From Myxococcales bacterium (lineage in GTDB: Bacteria; Myxococcota; Myxococcia; Myxococcales; Anaeromyxobacteraceae): DNA of 35,899 bases. Of this stretch, positions 29,210-35,899 are shown piece after piece. The stretch lies in assembly GCA_021782135.1 (NCBI GenBank), contig JAJXVM010000002.1, positions 1 through 35,899 of the forward strand, read 5' to 3'. The position numbers were made by a program, and so were the translations under genes. The notes beneath the pieces are model-generated. The model had not been told where the DNA came from, made no database searches, and worked only from the letters and a program-made list of their open reading frames with translations. Position 1 is the first letter of the stretch; each line of letters begins with the position of its first letter.

Positions 29210-29216
29210 GCTCCGA

Positions 29217-29507
29217 GTGACCCCTACGGGATTTGAATCCGCCTTCGGATCACCCGGTAGAGGTCTCCACAACAACCCCGACGAGGCGGCACGCGGCTCC
29301 GCATGGCCGGCGGACGCGTCGCGAGGCGTCGCGAGCGCGCCGGACACGTCCGGGCTGCCTCAAGTCACGCCCGACCTCTTCATCGCCGCCGGCGCCATCG
29401 CGGCCGAGCGCGCGGCGCGCCAGCGGGCCGGCCGCGGTGAGGTTGAGGGCATCCTGCGGCGCGCCGCCGAGCAGGCCGGGCGGCTTCTCGCGGGCGGGGT
29501 GGCGTGA
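29217..29507 (+). CDS. Possible small phage protein beginning in the att site
   Basis: Up to 96 aa. The C-terminal half (PDLFIAAGAIAAERAARQRAG...AEQAGRLLAGGVA) looks like a genuine small helical protein, and its stop overlaps the next start by one base (TGATG). The only standard in-frame start is GTG 29217, inside the tRNA-like remnant and without a Shine-Dalgarno; CTG 29355 is a further option. It may be a gene that crosses attP and changes its 5' end on integration. No function is recognised. Confidence 0.35.
   Translation: MTPTGFESAFGSPGRGLHNNPDEAARGSAWPADASRGVASAPDTSGLPQVTPDLFIAAGAIAAERAARQRAGRGEVEGILRRAAEQAGRLLAGGVA
29218..29243 (-). other. tRNA-like 3' end remnant (prophage attachment site)
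   Basis: Read on the minus strand, a T-arm (loop TTCAAAT at 29237-29231) is followed by an acceptor-like AGGGGTC and discriminator A at 29218. Four of five T-stem pairs form. The usual G53-C61 is A-C here, suggesting that the edge of the shared att core is at this point. No 5' acceptor GACCCCT or anticodon arm follows to the right, so this is not a complete tRNA. CCA is not encoded. The tRNA identity cannot be determined. Confidence 0.6.
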
Positions 29508-30586
29508 TGGCCGGGCTCCCTTGGGTGAAGGTCGCGACCGACTTCATGGACGACCCGAAGGCCCTGGCGCTCGCCCACCGGCTGAGCGACCCGCGCGCGC
29601 CGCTGCACCTCCCAGCGATCTGGGGCCACTTCGCCCGGCACTACGCGGACGGGTCCATGCCCGACACCGAGGACGCGATTCGCGCGCTCGAGCGGGCGGC
29701 CCTGTGGGTCGGCCCGGCGGGCGCCCTCGTCGAGGGCCTCCTCGCCGTCGGGCTCCTCGAGCGGAAGCGGAAGAGGGTCGCGGTGCACGCCTGGGGCGAG
29801 TGGCAGGAAGGACACGCGCGCAAGCTGGAGCGCGACCGTGCACGCATGCGCGCGAAACGTGCGGAACATCAGGGGAACGGTCGCGCGACGGTCGAACGAG
29901 GGTCGCGCGACCGTCGCGGGACAGAGGAGATGGAGAGGAGAGAAGAAGAAGATACCCCCTCGCTTCGCTCGGGGGGCGACGCGGCTGCGCCGGCCGCCGC
30001 GCCGCCGGAGCAAGCTGCGACGGCGCCCTCCGAGTTCCAGACCGTGGTGCGCCACTGGTTCGCAGCCTGGGAGCGGGCAGGCCGCGGCAAGCACACCTCG
30101 CTCACCGGCGCCGACGGCTTGAACCTGAAGCGCCTGGTGCGCGAGCTCGGCGCTGGGGAGGTCATGGCGCGGATGGACCGGGCGCTCTCGGACCCGTGGT
30201 TCCTCGAGCGCGCGGACCTGGCGCTGTTCTTCAGGCAGCGGAACAGGTTCGCGTCCCCGGGCCGCGCCGCCGCGCCGGTGGCGGCCGACTGGGGTCGGAT
30301 GGCCGCTGCGATGCGGGGCCCGGAGCTCAGGGCGATCGGCGAGGAGCTGTTCCGGCGTTCCGCGACCTTTCCGCAGCTCGGGCGGGCGGTGGAGATCCTC
30401 GCCGACGTGCCCGGGACGATGGTTGGGGACGTGCTCGTGCTGGAGGCCAGGGACGAGTTCCAACGCCAGCGGTTGGCCGACAGCGTCGGCCAGTTGCTGC
30501 TTGAGATCGCCCCGGATGTGCTCGGTCGTGCGGTGAGCATCGACGTGGTGACGAGGCTGCACACGGCGGCGGGAGTGGCACGATGA
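29507..30586 (+). CDS. Phage replication protein, O/replisome-organiser-like
   Basis: 359 aa from ATG 29507. The N-terminal ~100 residues (WVKVATDFMDDPKALALAHRL, AIWGHFARHYADG, LLERKRKRVAVHAW) resemble the winged-helix domain of phage replisome organisers. A charged, low-complexity linker (~100-170) follows, then a helical region of the O/DnaT-like type (LKRLVRELGAGEVMARMDRALSDPWF). The C-terminus (VLVLEARDEFQRQRLADSVGQLLLEI) resembles a DnaA N-terminal helicase-loading domain; this is the least certain part. Three iteron-like repeats lie in the linker DNA, as in lambda O. Expected role: bind the phage origin and recruit the host helicase. The downstream gene overlaps by ATGA. Confidence 0.7.
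   Translation: MAGLPWVKVATDFMDDPKALALAHRLSDPRAPLHLPAIWGHFARHYADGSMPDTEDAIRALERAALWVGPAGALVEGLLAVGLLERKRKRVAVHAWGEWQEGHARKLERDRARMRAKRAEHQGNGRATVERGSRDRRGTEEMERREEEDTPSLRSGGDAAAPAAAPPEQAATAPSEFQTVVRHWFAAWERAGRGKHTSLTGADGLNLKRLVRELGAGEVMARMDRALSDPWFLERADLALFFRQRNRFASPGRAAAPVAADWGRMAAAMRGPELRAIGEELFRRSATFPQLGRAVEILADVPGTMVGDVLVLEARDEFQRQRLADSVGQLLLEIAPDVLGRAVSIDVVTRLHTAAGVAR
29830..29990 (+). other. Candidate prophage replication origin inside the replication gene
   Basis: Three copies of GCGCGACSGT start at 29830, 29883 and 29905; the last two are 22 bp (two helical turns) apart and each sits in a GGTCGCGCGAC context. They are followed by a ~35-nt purine-rich, lower-GC stretch (29921-29955) and a C5/G5 hairpin. 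The arrangement parallels lambda's origin within gene O. Confidence 0.45.
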
Positions 30587-30750
30587 CGGACCCAATCGAG
30601 GCCCTGAGGCACAGGCTCGAGGAGTTGCGTGCTCGGTTCGGCAGGCCACGCGCCGATGGCCAGGCGGCCGCGCCGCGCCCTCTGCCCCTGTCAACGAACG
30701 AGGAGCCGCCGCCCCGCCACTGGTCCGAGGTCGACGATGACGACGAGTAG
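30583..30750 (+). CDS. Small acidic-tailed phage protein
   Basis: 55 aa, below the ORF-track cutoff. ATG 30583 overlaps the stop of the replication gene (ATGA). The sequence is a predicted helix (PIEALRHRLEELRARFGRP), a Pro-rich middle and an acidic end (WSEVDDDDE). The overlap and codon pattern support it being real. Role unknown; possibly an accessory to the replication protein. Confidence 0.6.
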   Translation: MTDPIEALRHRLEELRARFGRPRADGQAAAPRPLPLSTNEEPPPRHWSEVDDDDE

Positions 30751-30838
30751 GGGCCCTACCCTTAGTTTCCCCTCGGGGGGGGGCGGAGGCACGGGTGTGC
30801 AAAGGCGCGATTCCGGTCTAGTTCTAAGGAAATCAAAG

Positions 30839-30863
30839 GGTTGCCATGGTTGCCAAGGTTGCC
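30839..30863 (+). repeat. Three tandem 9-bp repeats GGTTGCCAW
   Basis: GGTTGCC occurs three times at 9-bp steps (30839, 30848, 30857), separated by AT and AA, in the 141-bp gap before the small terminase gene. The same gap has a run of nine G (30775-30783). Candidate binding site for a phage regulator or for the small terminase. Confidence 0.6.
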
Positions 30864-30891
30864 AAGCAGCGAGCGAAGTTGTCCATCCGTG

Positions 30892-31449
30892 ATGACGGAG
30901 GCGCCCGTGAACCTGCGTGAAGTCGGGCGGCACCTGGGCGTCAGCCACACAGCGATCCAGAAGGCGATCAAGAGCGGTCGCCTGTCTCGGGCCGTCACCC
31001 GCGACGCCAAGGGAAAGGTCAGCATCGATCCGGTGATGGCGGCCGCGGAGTGGCAGAACACGGGTCGGCTACCGACCACCGGCAGCGCCCTGAAGGCCCA
31101 CACCGCCGCCGGCCTGGTGGGGGAGATGGCCCAGCGGCTCTCCGAGCTCATCGGCGCGCAGTTGCAGGTGCTCGGGCGACAGGTGACGGCCTCCCTTCCG
31201 TACCTGGTGGCGGGCGCGGTTGAAGCGATCCGCGGCAAGGGCCGAGAGCCGAGCAGGTCGGAGCTCGAGGCGGTGCTGCTGCAGCGGCCGGGAGCCGAGG
31301 CCGAGCGGTACCTGTGGATCTACGCGCTCCTCCTGGCCGCGATCGATGACGGGCTCTCGGCCGCCGATCGGATCGAGATGGCGCGGGGCGAGGGCCGGAG
31401 AGCGGTGCTCGGTGAAGCCGATGGGGTGGCCGATGGCGACGAAGGGTGA
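30892..31449 (+). CDS. Nu1-like small terminase / phage DNA-binding protein
   Basis: 185 aa from ATG 30892; GTG 30907 is possible. The track start at 30841 falls in the tandem repeats and is rejected. The N-terminal winged-helix motif VNLREVGRHLGVSHTAIQKAIKSGRL is the pattern of phage Nu1-type small terminases, which bind packaging sites. A long helical C-terminal part (LVGEMAQRLSELIGAQLQVLGRQVTASLPYLV) would mediate oligomerisation. No large terminase gene follows in the window, so the packaging role is inferred. The gene end overlaps the next start by 17 bp. Confidence 0.65.
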   Translation: MTEAPVNLREVGRHLGVSHTAIQKAIKSGRLSRAVTRDAKGKVSIDPVMAAAEWQNTGRLPTTGSALKAHTAAGLVGEMAQRLSELIGAQLQVLGRQVTASLPYLVAGAVEAIRGKGREPSRSELEAVLLQRPGAEAERYLWIYALLLAAIDDGLSAADRIEMARGEGRRAVLGEADGVADGDEG

Positions 31450-31747
31450 CGACGTGCTCGAGGTGAAGCTCTCGGCCGAGGTCCAGGCCCTGATCTGCGT
31501 GCTGGCGACGCACGCGCTCGCCGGGGCTCGAGAAGCCCTGCAGAGGCTCCGGGACGAGGGGCACACGGTGACGGAGGCGAACCTGAAGCGGGTGGTCTCG
31601 GCGCTGCGCGTCCGCGAGTTCTGCTCCTCCGCTCTGGTCCTGGGAACGGACCCCGAGGTCAGCAACGAACAGCTCATCGAGGCAGCGCGCGCCGCCGGCG
31701 CCCAGGCTGTTCGTGAGGCCGGCCCGTTCCTGCGGATGGTGAACTGA
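31433..31747 (+). CDS. Phage protein of unknown function
   Basis: 104 aa from ATG 31433 (MATKGDDVLEVKLSAEV); the track ORF start at 31220 is rejected because it overlaps the small terminase gene, and ATG 31421 is an alternative. Predicted largely helical (VQALICVLATHALAGAREALQRL, NLKRVVSALRVREFC). No recognised domain. The next gene starts 2 bp after its stop. Confidence 0.6.
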   Translation: MATKGDDVLEVKLSAEVQALICVLATHALAGAREALQRLRDEGHTVTEANLKRVVSALRVREFCSSALVLGTDPEVSNEQLIEAARAAGAQAVREAGPFLRMVN

Positions 31748-31749
31748 GG

Positions 31750-32094
31750 ATGGGCACCTTCGCCGACAACCTGGCGCGCCTCCGGGTGGCAGCCGCCACC
31801 GGGGTGGTCCCGGCCGACCTGGTCCGGTGGGTCATCGAGACCATCTCGAGTTCCGCGCCAAGCGCGGAGCTGAAGGAGGCCCGAAACATCATGCTCCGAG
31901 AGGCGGCCGCGCGCGTCAGCGGTACCCGGTGGGCGAAGGCCCGGAGGATCGAGCGCGAGATCCGAGAGGTGTCCCAGGCCAGCCCTCTTTCCGACCATCG
32001 AGAGGAAGATGGCGTCCGGGAGTTCGTCGCGAAGGCCCTCGAGCTCGCGCCGCCGCCCGAGAGCTTCCGGCAGCTCCGGCGCGTCCTGGGATAG
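31750..32094 (+). CDS. Phage protein of unknown function
   Basis: 114 aa. ATG 31750 follows GGTGAACTGAGG, which supplies a Shine-Dalgarno-like GAGG. Helical and charged (FADNLARLRVAAATGVV, WAKARRIEREIREVSQ), ending LRRVLG. No family recognised. It occupies the place just before the capsid gene where portal or head-completion genes would be expected, but is too short for a portal. Confidence 0.6.
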   Translation: MGTFADNLARLRVAAATGVVPADLVRWVIETISSSAPSAELKEARNIMLREAAARVSGTRWAKARRIEREIREVSQASPLSDHREEDGVREFVAKALELAPPPESFRQLRRVLG

Positions 32095-32104
32095 GGACAT
32101 CGAG

Positions 32105-32124
32105 GTAGGGACGCACGTCCCTAC
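32105..32124 (+). promoter_or_regulatory. Palindrome in the capsid-gene leader
   Basis: GTAGGGACG-CA-CGTCCCTAC is a perfect 9-bp inverted repeat 38 nt before the capsid ATG, followed at once by a second small palindrome GGAC-GT-GTCC (32126-32135). TAGGGAC also occurs at 32092. Could be an operator or an mRNA hairpin. Confidence 0.45.
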
Positions 32125-32161
32125 TGGACGTGTCCTCGTGTGCGCGTGTCAGGCTGCCAAC

Positions 32162-34039
32162 ATGCAGACCCGCGCCATTTCGATCGACCTCGGGGAGCGC
32201 GAGCGGAAGGAAGCCGCCGCGGCGCGCCGCTTCCCCGTCTCGGTGAGCTCGGAGACGCCCGTCGCGCGCCGCGACTGGCAGACCGGGAAGATGTTCGACG
32301 AGGTCCTGTCGCACGCGCCAGGTGCCGTCGACCTGAGCCGGGCTCCGCTGCCGGTGCTCGAGGGCCACGATCGAAGCACCACGAACATCGGGGTCGTGAC
32401 CGGCCTTCGCGCCGAGGGCGGCCGCCTGCGCGGTGAGCTGGTGCTGGGGGCGAGCCAGCGCGCTCAGGAGCTCGCCGCCGACATCGCCTCCGGCATCGTG
32501 ACCGGCCTCTCCGTCGGGTACCAGATCACCGAGGAGCAGCGCGACGAGAAGGCAAAGCGAGTCGTCGCCACCCGGTGGATGCCCTTCGAAGTCTCGATCG
32601 TCCCCATCCCCGCCGACGTGTCCGTCGGCATCAACAGGAGCCACGCCATGGAAGAGAACAACATCCCCTCCCCGAGCCCCGCCGGCCCGCCCGAGAGCGC
32701 CATCGAGGCCGCGACGCGCGCGGAGCGCCAGCGCGCGGCGGACATCCGCTCCATCGTCCGGCGCGCCCGGCTCCCCGACGGCATCGCGGACCAGCTCGTC
32801 AACGACGGCGCCACGCTCGACCAGGCGCGCGCGGCGGTCCTCGACAAGCTCGCGACGGCCTCTGAGTCCTTCCGGACGATGCAGCACGTGCCGCCGGACG
32901 CGGGGATCCACTTCGGCTCGGTCGAGGCCGGGAACGACTACGCGGAGGACTTCCGCGCCGCCGCCGTGGATTCGATCCTCCTGCGGTCGGGGATCCCCGT
33001 CGAGCAGCCGCACGCCGCGGCGCGCGACGTCAGCGCTTCCACCCACGAGCTGGCGCGGCTCTGCCTGAGCCGGGCGGGGCTCTCGGTTCGGTTCCAGCGG
33101 GGGCCGGAGCTGATCAAGCGCGCGCTGACCACGTCGGAGTTCCCCGGGCTGCTCGGCGACGCTCTGCACAAGACCATCCGCACCGGCTACGAGAACGAGC
33201 CGGCGAGCCATCGGAAGTGGGTCCGGGTGGCGCCGATCGAGGACTTCCGCCTGCAGCATCGGCCCATCATCGGTTCGGCCCCGGCTCTCGAGCCGGTGGA
33301 CGAGCACGCGGAGTTCACGTTCGGCAGCCTTTCCGACGACGAGACCAGCTACCGCGTCTCGAAGTACGGGAAAATCGTGGCGCTGAGCTGGGAAGCCCTG
33401 GTGAACGACAACCTGGGTGCCTTCCTGCGCGTGCAGCCCGGCCTCGGCCAGGCGGCGCGCCGGAAGGAGGCCGACACGGTTTACGCCATCTTCTCCGACA
33501 ACGCGGGCGCCGGGTCCGCCATGCAGGACGGCGTGAACCTGTTCGACGCCACCCACGGCAACGTGACCGCGGCCGGGGCGCTCAACGCTCAGCTCCTCAG
33601 CACGGCGCGCGCTCTGCTCCGAAAGCAGCAGGCGCTCGGCGGAGGATACCTGGCTCTCGTCCCGCGCTACTGGATCGTGCCCAGCGAGTTCGAGACCGAC
33701 GCCGAGATCATCATGGCGAACGCCAGCCGGCGCATGACCACGGAGAAGACGACTCCCGAGTGGATCGAGTCGGTGGAGCTGGTGGTCGAGCCGCGCCTCG
33801 CCTCGACTGCGTGCTTCCTCGCCGCCGACCCCGGCCAGATCGACACGGTGGAGCTGGGCATCCTCGAGACCGAGCCGCAGAACAACCCGAGCGCCGTGAT
33901 CGGCGCTGGCCCCGGCCCCTCGATCGAGCAGGATCTCGGGTTCGTGCGTGACGAGGTTCGGTGGAAGGTGCGGCACACCTTCGGCGCGAAGCCGCTCGAC
34001 TGGCGCGGCCTCGTGAAGATGCCGGTCAACAGCTACTAG
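32162..34039 (+). CDS. Prohead protease / major capsid protein fusion
   Basis: 625 aa from ATG 32162; the 51-residue extension in the track ORF crosses the upstream gene's end and is rejected. Residues 1-160 form an S78 prohead protease with catalytic H69 (LEGHD) and S117 (TGLSVGY); their 48-residue spacing equals that recalled for HK97 gp4 (H65, S113). A scaffold-like helical segment (~163-290) follows. The C-terminal ~330 residues are a Mu gpT-like/HK97-fold capsid (WVRVAPIEDFRLQHRPIIG, YGKIVALSWEALVNDNLGAF, YLALVPRYWIVPSEFETDA). Such fusions are known. An internal Shine-Dalgarno and ATG at 32648 could yield scaffold-capsid alone. Confidence 0.88.
   Translation: MQTRAISIDLGERERKEAAAARRFPVSVSSETPVARRDWQTGKMFDEVLSHAPGAVDLSRAPLPVLEGHDRSTTNIGVVTGLRAEGGRLRGELVLGASQRAQELAADIASGIVTGLSVGYQITEEQRDEKAKRVVATRWMPFEVSIVPIPADVSVGINRSHAMEENNIPSPSPAGPPESAIEAATRAERQRAADIRSIVRRARLPDGIADQLVNDGATLDQARAAVLDKLATASESFRTMQHVPPDAGIHFGSVEAGNDYAEDFRAAAVDSILLRSGIPVEQPHAAARDVSASTHELARLCLSRAGLSVRFQRGPELIKRALTTSEFPGLLGDALHKTIRTGYENEPASHRKWVRVAPIEDFRLQHRPIIGSAPALEPVDEHAEFTFGSLSDDETSYRVSKYGKIVALSWEALVNDNLGAFLRVQPGLGQAARRKEADTVYAIFSDNAGAGSAMQDGVNLFDATHGNVTAAGALNAQLLSTARALLRKQQALGGGYLALVPRYWIVPSEFETDAEIIMANASRRMTTEKTTPEWIESVELVVEPRLASTACFLAADPGQIDTVELGILETEPQNNPSAVIGAGPGPSIEQDLGFVRDEVRWKVRHTFGAKPLDWRGLVKMPVNSY
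32636..32650 (+). promoter_or_regulatory. Internal ribosome-binding site and ATG inside the protease-capsid gene
   Basis: AGGAG (32636-32640) lies 7 nt before an in-frame ATG (32648, residue 163), exactly at the protease/scaffold boundary. Initiation here gives a 463-aa scaffold-capsid protein. Confidence 0.5.
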
Positions 34040-34050
34040 CGCATCTCCTG

Positions 34051-34075
34051 CTCGGCGTGCCGTACGCACGCCGAG
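34051..34075 (+). terminator. Hairpin after the capsid gene
   Basis: Perfect 9-bp stem CTCGGCGTG/CACGCCGAG with a 7-nt loop, 11 bp after the capsid stop. No T-tract. May limit read-through from the capsid gene into the tape measure gene. Confidence 0.4.
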
Positions 34076-34113
34076 AGGGTGGTTGCACGCCGGCCGCGCG
34101 GCCCGACCGAGGA

Positions 34114-34145
34114 CCTACCGCTCTTCTCTCCTGTCGAGCGGTAGG
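34114..34145 (+). promoter_or_regulatory. Second inverted repeat before the tape measure gene
   Basis: 10-bp arms CCTACCGCTC/GAGCGGTAGG with a pyrimidine-rich 12-nt loop, 38 nt before the tape measure ATG. Operator, attenuator or terminator; cannot be told apart from sequence. Confidence 0.35.
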
Positions 34146-34183
34146 AGGCCGCAACTCTTCAGCGCTGTGCAAGGAGCGCCGCC

Positions 34184-35794
34184 ATGGGGACCACCACCGA
34201 CTACCCCCTCTCGATCACGATTCGTGCGATCGACAAGGCCACCGCGCCGCTGCGCGCGATGAACCAGCGGCTGCGCGAGAGCACCGCGCCGGTGCGCCAG
34301 CTGGGCGCGAGCCTGTCCTCGCTCTCCGGCGAGGTCGGGATCACGAAGCTCGCCAGCTCGTTCCAGGACGTCGCCGGCAGGGTGGCGGGGCTCGGGCTCA
34401 AGATGCTCGGGCTCGAGGCGATCAGCGTCGGCGCGCTCTACCACATCGTGCGCGGCTCGGTGGACGCAGGCGAGGAGCTGTTCCACGCTGCCAAACGGGC
34501 GGGGATGACGGTAGACGCCTACGCCCAGCTCCGGTTCGCTGCGGAGCAGGCCGGAGTGGAACAGGAGCAGTTCGCCTCGGCGATCGACCAGTTCAACAAG
34601 CGCCTCGGCGACGCCAAGGCGGGTGGCGGACCGCTCCTCGAGTTCCTGCAGAAGGTGAGCCCGGTGCTCGCCACCCAGGTGGCCAGCGCGAAGAGCTCAG
34701 AGGAGGCTCTCGGCCTCCTGACGAAAGCCTTCGAGAAGGTGAAGGACCCGGCGAAGCTCGCCGCGCTGTCGGCGGCCGCCTTCGGCAAGGGCAGCGTCGA
34801 GATGGGGCAGTTCCTCCACGAAGGGACCGAGGAGATCGAGAAGCAGTCGAGGCTCTACAGAATGTTCGCGGGGAGCAAGGAGGTCTCGACTCTCGCGGCC
34901 TCGGAGCTCGCGAAGGCTTTTGGACGTATGAACACCGCCGCGGGCGGCCTGCGAGGCGCCCTCGTGTCAGGTCTCTACCCGGGTGTGCTCGCCATCACGA
35001 ACGCGCTGACGATGTTCATGGCCGAGCACCGCGAGAGCCTGGCCGGTTGGGCGCGCAGCACGAGCACCGCCATCAGCAAGTGGGTGGCCGAAGGGGGCAT
35101 GGAGAAGCTGACCAAGGCGCTGGGGGAAATCTCGTCGGCCGCCGGGTGGGTCGTCGATAAGCTCGGCGGAGTCGGCAACGCCGCGCTGATCGCCGCAGGC
35201 GCGCTCGGCATCCAGCTCGCGGCGTCGGTGGGAGGCGCCACCAAGGAGCTCGTCCTCCTGGTCGTCCAGCTCGCGCGCACGGCCTACGGACTCGCGGCGC
35301 TGGCCTTCGGCCCGGTGGTAGCGGCGATCGGCGACTTCATCGTCGCGATCCGCGCCGGGTACGGGGTCATGGCGGCCTTCAACCTCATCCTGACCGCGAA
35401 CCCCATCGGCGCCATCATCACCGGAATCACCCTGCTCGCCGGCGCGGCGTACCTCATCTACAAGAACTGGGCGCCGATCAAGAAGTTCTTCGAGGACCTC
35501 TGGGACACCCTGAAGCAGGTCTTCTCGAGCCCGATCGCCTCCATCCAGAAGGCCTGGAACTGGGTGACGGGAGGGTCGAGCAGTAGCTCCGACTCGACGG
35601 GCGTGCAGGCGGCGCGCCCGACCATCGGCGCGAACGCGGCCGCCCCGCAGGCCGCCAGCGCGCGGCCGCCGGCTCAGCAGGCCCACGTCACCGTCGACTT
35701 CAACAACCTCCCGCCCGGTGCCCGCGTCAGCCAGGATCCGAGCGGAACCGCCGCCCTCGATCTGGGCCTCGGATACTCCATGGTGACGCCGTGA
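34184..35794 (+). CDS. Phage tail tape measure protein
   Basis: 536 aa from ATG 34184 with AAGGAG 8 nt upstream. The N-terminus (LSITIRAIDKATAPLRAMNQRL) is the usual tape-measure opening. Long helices follow, with hydrophobic segments near residues 335-400 and the motif ANPIGAIITGITLLAGAAYLIYKNW. The C-terminus (VTVDFNNLPPGARVS) resembles Mu-type tape measure proteins. It sets tail length and helps inject DNA. At 536 aa it would specify a short tail (roughly 80 nm by the usual 0.15 nm per residue rule). It directly follows the capsid gene, without the tail-tube and chaperone genes normally placed before it. Overlaps the next gene by GTGA. Confidence 0.85.
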   Translation: MGTTTDYPLSITIRAIDKATAPLRAMNQRLRESTAPVRQLGASLSSLSGEVGITKLASSFQDVAGRVAGLGLKMLGLEAISVGALYHIVRGSVDAGEELFHAAKRAGMTVDAYAQLRFAAEQAGVEQEQFASAIDQFNKRLGDAKAGGGPLLEFLQKVSPVLATQVASAKSSEEALGLLTKAFEKVKDPAKLAALSAAAFGKGSVEMGQFLHEGTEEIEKQSRLYRMFAGSKEVSTLAASELAKAFGRMNTAAGGLRGALVSGLYPGVLAITNALTMFMAEHRESLAGWARSTSTAISKWVAEGGMEKLTKALGEISSAAGWVVDKLGGVGNAALIAAGALGIQLAASVGGATKELVLLVVQLARTAYGLAALAFGPVVAAIGDFIVAIRAGYGVMAAFNLILTANPIGAIITGITLLAGAAYLIYKNWAPIKKFFEDLWDTLKQVFSSPIASIQKAWNWVTGGSSSSSDSTGVQAARPTIGANAAAPQAASARPPAQQAHVTVDFNNLPPGARVSQDPSGTAALDLGLGYSMVTP

Positions 35795-35899
35795 GCGGAC
35801 CTCAGCTCGGGTGGGTAGATGGCCTCGGTGAAGCTGTCCGAACGGCGCTCTCCGACTGGCTCTCGAAGAACGGGCCGAGTTCGGTGAAGGGGGAAGAGG
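35791..35899 (+). CDS. Start of a further phage gene (truncated by window)
   Basis: 36 codons visible from GTG 35791, overlapping the tape measure stop (GTGA): SGPQLGWVDGLGEAVRTALSDWL. In Mu-like phages the gene after the tape measure encodes a DNA circularisation/baseplate-hub protein, but the visible part is too short to identify. Confidence 0.55.
   Translation, partial: MSGPQLGWVDGLGEAVRTALSDWLSKNGPSSVKGEE

Follow-up and report, generated by a model that had tools for sequence, protein, structure and literature searches.

A putative replication origin of lambda-type arrangement inside the initiator gene of a Myxococcales prophage

Where does an integrated phage begin to copy its DNA, and can the place be read from its initiator gene? 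To our knowledge, origins are unmapped for nearly all phages. The question arises at the end of a 35.9-kb stretch of Myxococcales DNA, hereafter the window, which is one complete contig of a 3.38-Mb draft genome. Host genes occupy the window up to ~29.2 kb, and the prophage begins thereafter at an attachment-site core and carries a gene for a replication initiator. Judged from sequence, positions 29879-29952 are very probably the replication origin of the prophage, located inside its own initiator gene in a lambda-type arrangement with a non-lambda initiator. The features of the locus are listed below.

29216-29237, strand not assigned: attachment-site core of 22 nt, equal to the 3' end of a tRNA-Glu gene and forming the left end of the prophage
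29217-29507, plus strand: ORF upstream of the initiator, in the excised circle the 3' end of the integrase gene
29507-30586, plus strand: phage replication initiator gene, 359 aa, containing the putative origin (ORF and PHROG matches)
29555-29785, plus strand: predicted winged-helix DNA-binding domain, aa 17-93 (AlphaFold2, pLDDT ~90)
29830-29839, plus strand: word GCGCGACCGT, encoding a conserved ERDR motif and likely incidental
29858-29992, plus strand: stretch of aa 118-162 with codon identity between the window and its homologue L002
29879-29894, plus strand: iteron 1 GGTCGCGCGACGGTCG, palindromic core GTCGCGCGAC at 29880-29889 (repeat and palindrome analysis, synonymous freeze)
29888-30016, plus strand: predicted disordered linker, aa 128-170 (AlphaFold2, pLDDT < 50), equal to the origin footprint
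29901-29916, plus strand: iteron 2 GGTCGCGCGACCGTCG, palindromic core GGTCGCGCGACC at 29901-29912, 22 bp from iteron 1
29908-29922, minus strand: overlapping degenerate copy GTCCCGCGACGGTCG, one mismatch to the 15-mer, a possible weak third candidate site
29918-29952, plus strand: polypurine tract GGGACAGAGGAGATGGAGAGGAGAGAAGAAGAAGA, 35 nt, probable unwinding or helicase-loading element
30275-30574, plus strand: C-terminal domain, aa 257-356, resembling DnaA domain I (Foldseek)

The initiator was recognized by its matches to the PHROG annotation 'replication initiation protein' over aa 2-176 (phrog_3926, E=1e-14; phrog_9474, E=1.6e-14). Pfam and NCBIfam searches named nothing relevant, the Pfam phage-replication models gave no match at E<=1 for the window protein or at E<=10 for eight relatives, and a PDB search by sequence returned only noise. 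A search for relatives with the window protein alone found none in either collection. The homologues are L002 in G012, a complete genome of the same genus as the source of the window (66% identity), L003 from a different genus in the family (45%, N-terminal half only), six further Myxococcota matches and p49 of Myxococcus phage Mx9. AlphaFold2, run with a nine-sequence alignment, predicted a long helix at aa 96-123 and a helical part at aa 176-250 in addition to the winged helix and the linker; the predicted disorder falls where the earlier note had placed the repeats, between the winged helix and the C-terminal part. The best PDB matches of the C-terminal domain in Foldseek were DnaA domain I (4tps_D, probability 1.00; 2jmp, 0.97), with E values of just 0.06-0.16, and the viral fold matches included a 'replisome organizer' and a 'DnaA N-terminal domain containing protein'.

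The linker DNA had been described as holding three GCGCGACSGT iterons, two of them 22 bp apart. Exact matches to this word were found in the window on the plus strand at 29830, 29883 and 29905 and on the minus strand at 29877, and nowhere else in its 35.9 kb, so the words and the 22-bp step stand. The repeat unit proved, however, to be longer than a 10-mer, namely a 16-bp near-palindrome, GGTCGCGCGACSGTCG, that occurs twice at a centre-to-centre distance of 22 bp. The third copy at 29830 found no support: it is non-palindromic and lies within conserved K-(V/L)-E-R-D-R codons, and we rejected it as incidental, which falls short of disproof. The four words observed against 1.5 expected are weak evidence, being matched by 10 of 100 shuffles, and the bare repeat in the window gene is marginal against synonymous-codon shuffles (p=0.06), whereas the repeat in L002 exceeds all 300 of them. 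The 15-mer without mismatch has two copies, both at this locus, and none elsewhere in the draft genome. Because the whole-gene repeat test was significant in only some genes, we turned to the synonymous, palindrome and purine tests.

The second element is the purine tract, which starts ~11 bp after the centre of iteron 2 and agrees with the purine-rich, lower-GC stretch previously noted behind the iterons. Within it, 34 of 35 nucleotides are purines, and the GC content is 51% against 73% for the gene (A+T is only 49%); the 40-nt GC minimum of the initiator gene falls here. The tract is without a clear 5-bp period. Purine content exceeded that of synonymous shuffles in 8 of 8 genes, with p=0.01 for the window and p<=0.006 in seven relatives, the lowest values falling below 0.001. 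Arginine is written as AGR in 19 of 21 tract codons versus 30 of 311 elsewhere, a count biased by the choice of the tract for its purines, and the shuffle test is the fair one.

Comparisons between homologous genes demonstrate selection on the DNA of the linker. Across aa 118-162 of the window and L002, all 35 common degenerate residues are codon-identical (permutation p=5e-5), and this stretch contains about ten amino-acid or indel differences and zero synonymous ones. Since residues changed or were lost while the codons stayed identical, the DNA has been kept while the protein drifted. In the pair L012 and L013, the linker again holds the longest codon-identical run (aa 124-153, p=0.0065). 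Within the footprint of iterons plus tract, identical codons numbered 21 of 21 for the window and L002, and 20 of 20 and 24 of 26 in the two other gene pairs, the last of which (L010 and L048) is too close for significance alone; pooled over the three pairs, 65 of 67 codons were identical in the footprint compared with 531 of 733 outside it (p=3.5e-7). The expectation that the iterons be conserved in DNA beyond what the protein needs was thus confirmed.

In relatives, the same geometry is written in different words. The core GTCGCGCGAC occurs twice in the window and in L002, and CCCGCGCGGG twice in L010, with a 22-bp step in each. L014 carries GGACGTCC three times at spacings of 11 and 22 bp, L012 and L013 each have one perfect TCCCGCGCGGGA preceded at 22 bp by an imperfect partner, in Mx9 ACCCCGCGCGGGGT and AACCCCCCGGGGGGTT lie 23 bp apart, and the cyanophage Sc-Yong805-2 contains two GGACGTCC sites at a 22-bp step; L003 shows only an imperfect inverted repeat. 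The purine tract of relatives is 30-44 nt long and starts 10-11 bp after the second centre in the window, L002, L010 and L012 and 2 bp after it in L013; in L014 and Mx9 the start lies 20 and 49 bp, respectively, after the last palindrome. Mx9 p49 thus resembles the window in its homologous initiator and in its palindromes followed by a purine tract, and Mx8 p19, similar to L014 over the C-terminal part, has overlapping palindromes and then GGAGAT repeats. Unlike the window, the initiator genes of these two phages are followed directly by a DnaB-like helicase gene (Mx9) or precede a DnaC-like gene (Mx8), and their proteins seem to be without the DnaA-I-like end. We found no literature on the Mx9 and Mx8 origins within the library searched. 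In Sc-Yong805-2, a Synechococcus phage, the initiator-like gene (L052, 2489-3379) is annotated as a hypothetical protein and carries GCCTAA/GCCTAT tandem units.

The arrangement was also compared with lambda gene O, measured with the same scripts. The annotated lambda iterons, at aa 117-145, are spaced by 20, 24 and 23 bp, and the purine tract AAAAGAAAAAAGAAAAGA follows at aa 151-156; the corresponding positions in the window are aa 125-137 for the iterons and aa 138-149 for the tract. Both origins would thus consist of palindromic iterons inside the initiator gene, between its DNA-binding and C-terminal parts, with similar spacing and a one-strand purine tract downstream, and the lambda-like location and order claimed for this locus hold, as does the spacing. 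The lambda tract alone does not exceed synonymous shuffles (p=0.23). Each lambda iteron bound by O is a 19-bp imperfect inverted repeat (PMC7466680), and according to a passage of the same source citing Dodson 1986, the minimal unit competent for unwinding is two iterons plus the adjacent AT-rich region. Lambda iterons are bound by O dimers, and nearly every base on one strand of the AT-rich region is a purine (PMC5043065). In contrast to lambda, the window has two iterons rather than four, 16-bp GC-rich units, a less AT-rich tract and a DnaA-I-like C-terminal domain. By Pfam the initiator falls outside the lambda O family, and we noticed no P-like helicase-loader gene among the window ORFs after 30586. 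Sequence comparison therefore supports a site that would work like the lambda ori through an initiator outside the lambda O family. In SPP1, the oriL in gene 38 likewise places initiator repeats and an unwinding element within the initiator gene (PMC6316719); unlike the window, SPP1 carries another origin besides and encodes both a loader (gp39) and a helicase (gp40) of its own.

From this anatomy we infer how the site may work. Initiator dimers would bind the two palindromic iterons via the winged-helix domain, and since the iterons are two helical turns apart, both would be on one face of the DNA. The bound complex would strain the adjacent low-GC, one-strand-purine tract, which would open, and the DnaA-domain-I-shaped C-terminal domain may bring the host DnaB helicase to the opened strand. 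With hardly any constraint on its amino-acid sequence, the disordered linker can host such a DNA signal; it would serve as coding room for the signal, with the peptide as a by-product. Genes with a DnaA-I-like end (window, L002, L003, L012 and L013) separate from those with an adjacent helicase or loader gene (Mx8, Mx9 and L014). We considered whether the DnaA-I-like end substitutes for the adjacent gene, but L010 has neither, and the idea was set aside as a lead.

Beyond the Myxococcota, relatives in actinobacterial, Firmicute and cyanobacterial phages showed linker repeats followed by short tandem tracts of 5-7-bp units, such as (CCCGA)n, (CCCAA)n, (GTCCC)n, AGACCAGAGT units and GCCTAA units. 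A tract above the shuffle range was found in ~20 of 26 initiator genes and in 0 of 12 control genes. Following a prediction written before new genes were fetched, five of six new full-length actinophage initiators carried a tract (p<=0.035), and LOCV2 was the one in which it was absent; the six are not independent, Darolandstone being close to Raleigh and Ali17 to Leonard. Among the controls for the new genes, one of seven had a weak lag-6 signal (p=0.045). The actinophage proteins, annotated as 'replication initiation protein' or 'RepA-like', share with the window a related N-terminal domain and linker iterons plus a tract, for example (CCCGA)n, but have 5-bp tandem units instead of a plain purine tract. 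An origin in or next to repA has been suggested for other mycobacteriophages of the RepA type (PMC7157519).

In Sonali, Dori, Grizzly (L069) and E6 (L071), the initiator ORFs end after the winged helix, and iteron-like repeats were seen by eye just downstream, noncoding at least in Sonali (L080, 1591-1779) and Dori (L082, 1573-1848). The noncoding gap of these two contains 4-bp tandem units, ACAG/ACAT and ACGT. The origin has apparently moved out of the coding frame in the short-initiator phages, and the persistence of noncoding repeats after short ORFs argues that the DNA itself is what is kept. We tentatively propose, holding it somewhat short of probable, that initiators of this winged-helix PHROG type have their origin fixed just after the DNA-binding domain, with at least two lineage-specific iterons and then a strand-asymmetric tract of 5-7-bp tandem units, which is coding where it forms a disordered linker and noncoding where the protein is short. 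The tandem units would set the loading register for a single-strand-binding initiator or helicase, as phage equivalents of DnaA-trios or of the DnaD recognition element. Our literature searches, in a partial library, found no report of the window origin or of this wider tract rule. If the layout holds, the origin could be read from the sequence of hundreds of phages with this initiator type (more than 500 records match the first 129 aa of one actinophage relative), and swapping the winged helix together with its own iterons would make a simple test of initiator-origin specificity.

Other explanations of the linker DNA have to be weighed against an origin. It is extremely improbable that the repeats arise solely from constraint on the protein, a charged low-complexity linker written in GC-rich codons. 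The copy at 29830 with its ERDR motif fits such a reading, and the bare 10-mer count is not rare; for iterons 1 and 2 and the tract it is contradicted, as amino acids change in the footprint and synonymous positions do not, the purine tracts exceed synonymous shuffles and the linker is predicted to be disordered. The 5-bp tandem tracts of relatives, with their non-codon period, also argue against it. We give hardly more credence to the low divergence of the linker being the mark of a recent recombination tract or module boundary. Mosaic exchange does occur in this gene, where the DNA similarity between the window and G012 ends at 30273, but that breakpoint is ~280 bp distant, the low-divergence stretch contains some ten amino-acid or indel changes without a single synonymous one, and in L012 and L013 the longest codon-identical run falls, independently, in this linker as well.

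Very improbable, too, is that the palindromes are operators for repression of transcription across the gene, by the initiator or by some other phage regulator, with the origin elsewhere. Spacing by two helical turns is typical of operators, and a predicted HTH gene lies just downstream (30841-31449); against this, the sites are ~370 bp inside the gene and coupled to the purine tract at a fixed offset, in a layout that matches the lambda ori and is kept in unrelated phages while the word changes, and an initiator at the same sites could serve both jobs. An appreciable, though minor, chance remains with a former origin in an element that is now a decayed remnant and no longer replicates. Few structural genes lie between the initiator and the contig end, and G012 has at this site an element of just 15.7 kb with different genes, but the initiator ORF is intact, and iterons and tract have stayed synonymously unchanged after the two lineages parted. 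Neither the window prophage nor the G012 element showed a switch in cumulative GC skew, which was monotonic or featureless and uninformative as a test.

At the corresponding site of G012, the 22-nt attachment core bounds the element on either side, with the far copy inside an intact tRNA-Glu gene. In G012 the integrase frame crosses the core, and the in-frame join over attP gives a 534-aa phage form versus 450 aa in the lysogen; in the excised circle the frame continues into the pre-initiator ORF and ends with TGATG at the initiator start, the same overlap as between the stop of the window ORF 29217-29507 and its initiator. Since the frame crosses the core, integration splits the initiator from the upstream integrase gene, and the two are adjacent only in the excised circle, from which expression of the initiator may depend on excision. 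The attachment site thus lies within the integrase gene in both prophages (window 29216-29507; G012 C1 107891-108182 and 122201-123553, L041 and L042), an arrangement like that of Mx8, for which attP within int is already known (PMC6070905).

The window prophage (29217-35899) continues after the initiator with a possible small terminase or HTH gene, a capsid-protease fusion (32009-34039) and a tape measure gene (34184-35794). We noticed neither a large terminase nor a portal gene up to the end of the contig, and the element, possibly incomplete, may be satellite-like, decayed or incompletely assembled. The G012 element (C1 107.9-123.6 kb, L041 and L042) encodes the initiator, the integrase, an excisionase-like gene, a 628-aa endolysin-like protein and a 1763-aa protein (phrog_9880); no capsid gene was noticed in its 15.7 kb, and it is possibly a satellite or remnant. 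The similarity between the two prophages ends at initiator aa 256 (G012 C1 108966), just upstream of the DnaA-I-like domain, and the genes downstream differ; on these alignments the C-terminal domain looks like an exchangeable module. In Myxococcaceae, the genes L021, L022, L030, L032, L033 and L036 have a C-terminal block in common with L013 and different N-terminal parts, and strong linker repeats occur in several of these modular relatives, with GTGACGTCAC at a 21-bp step in L030 and GCGTGAC in L022 and L032.
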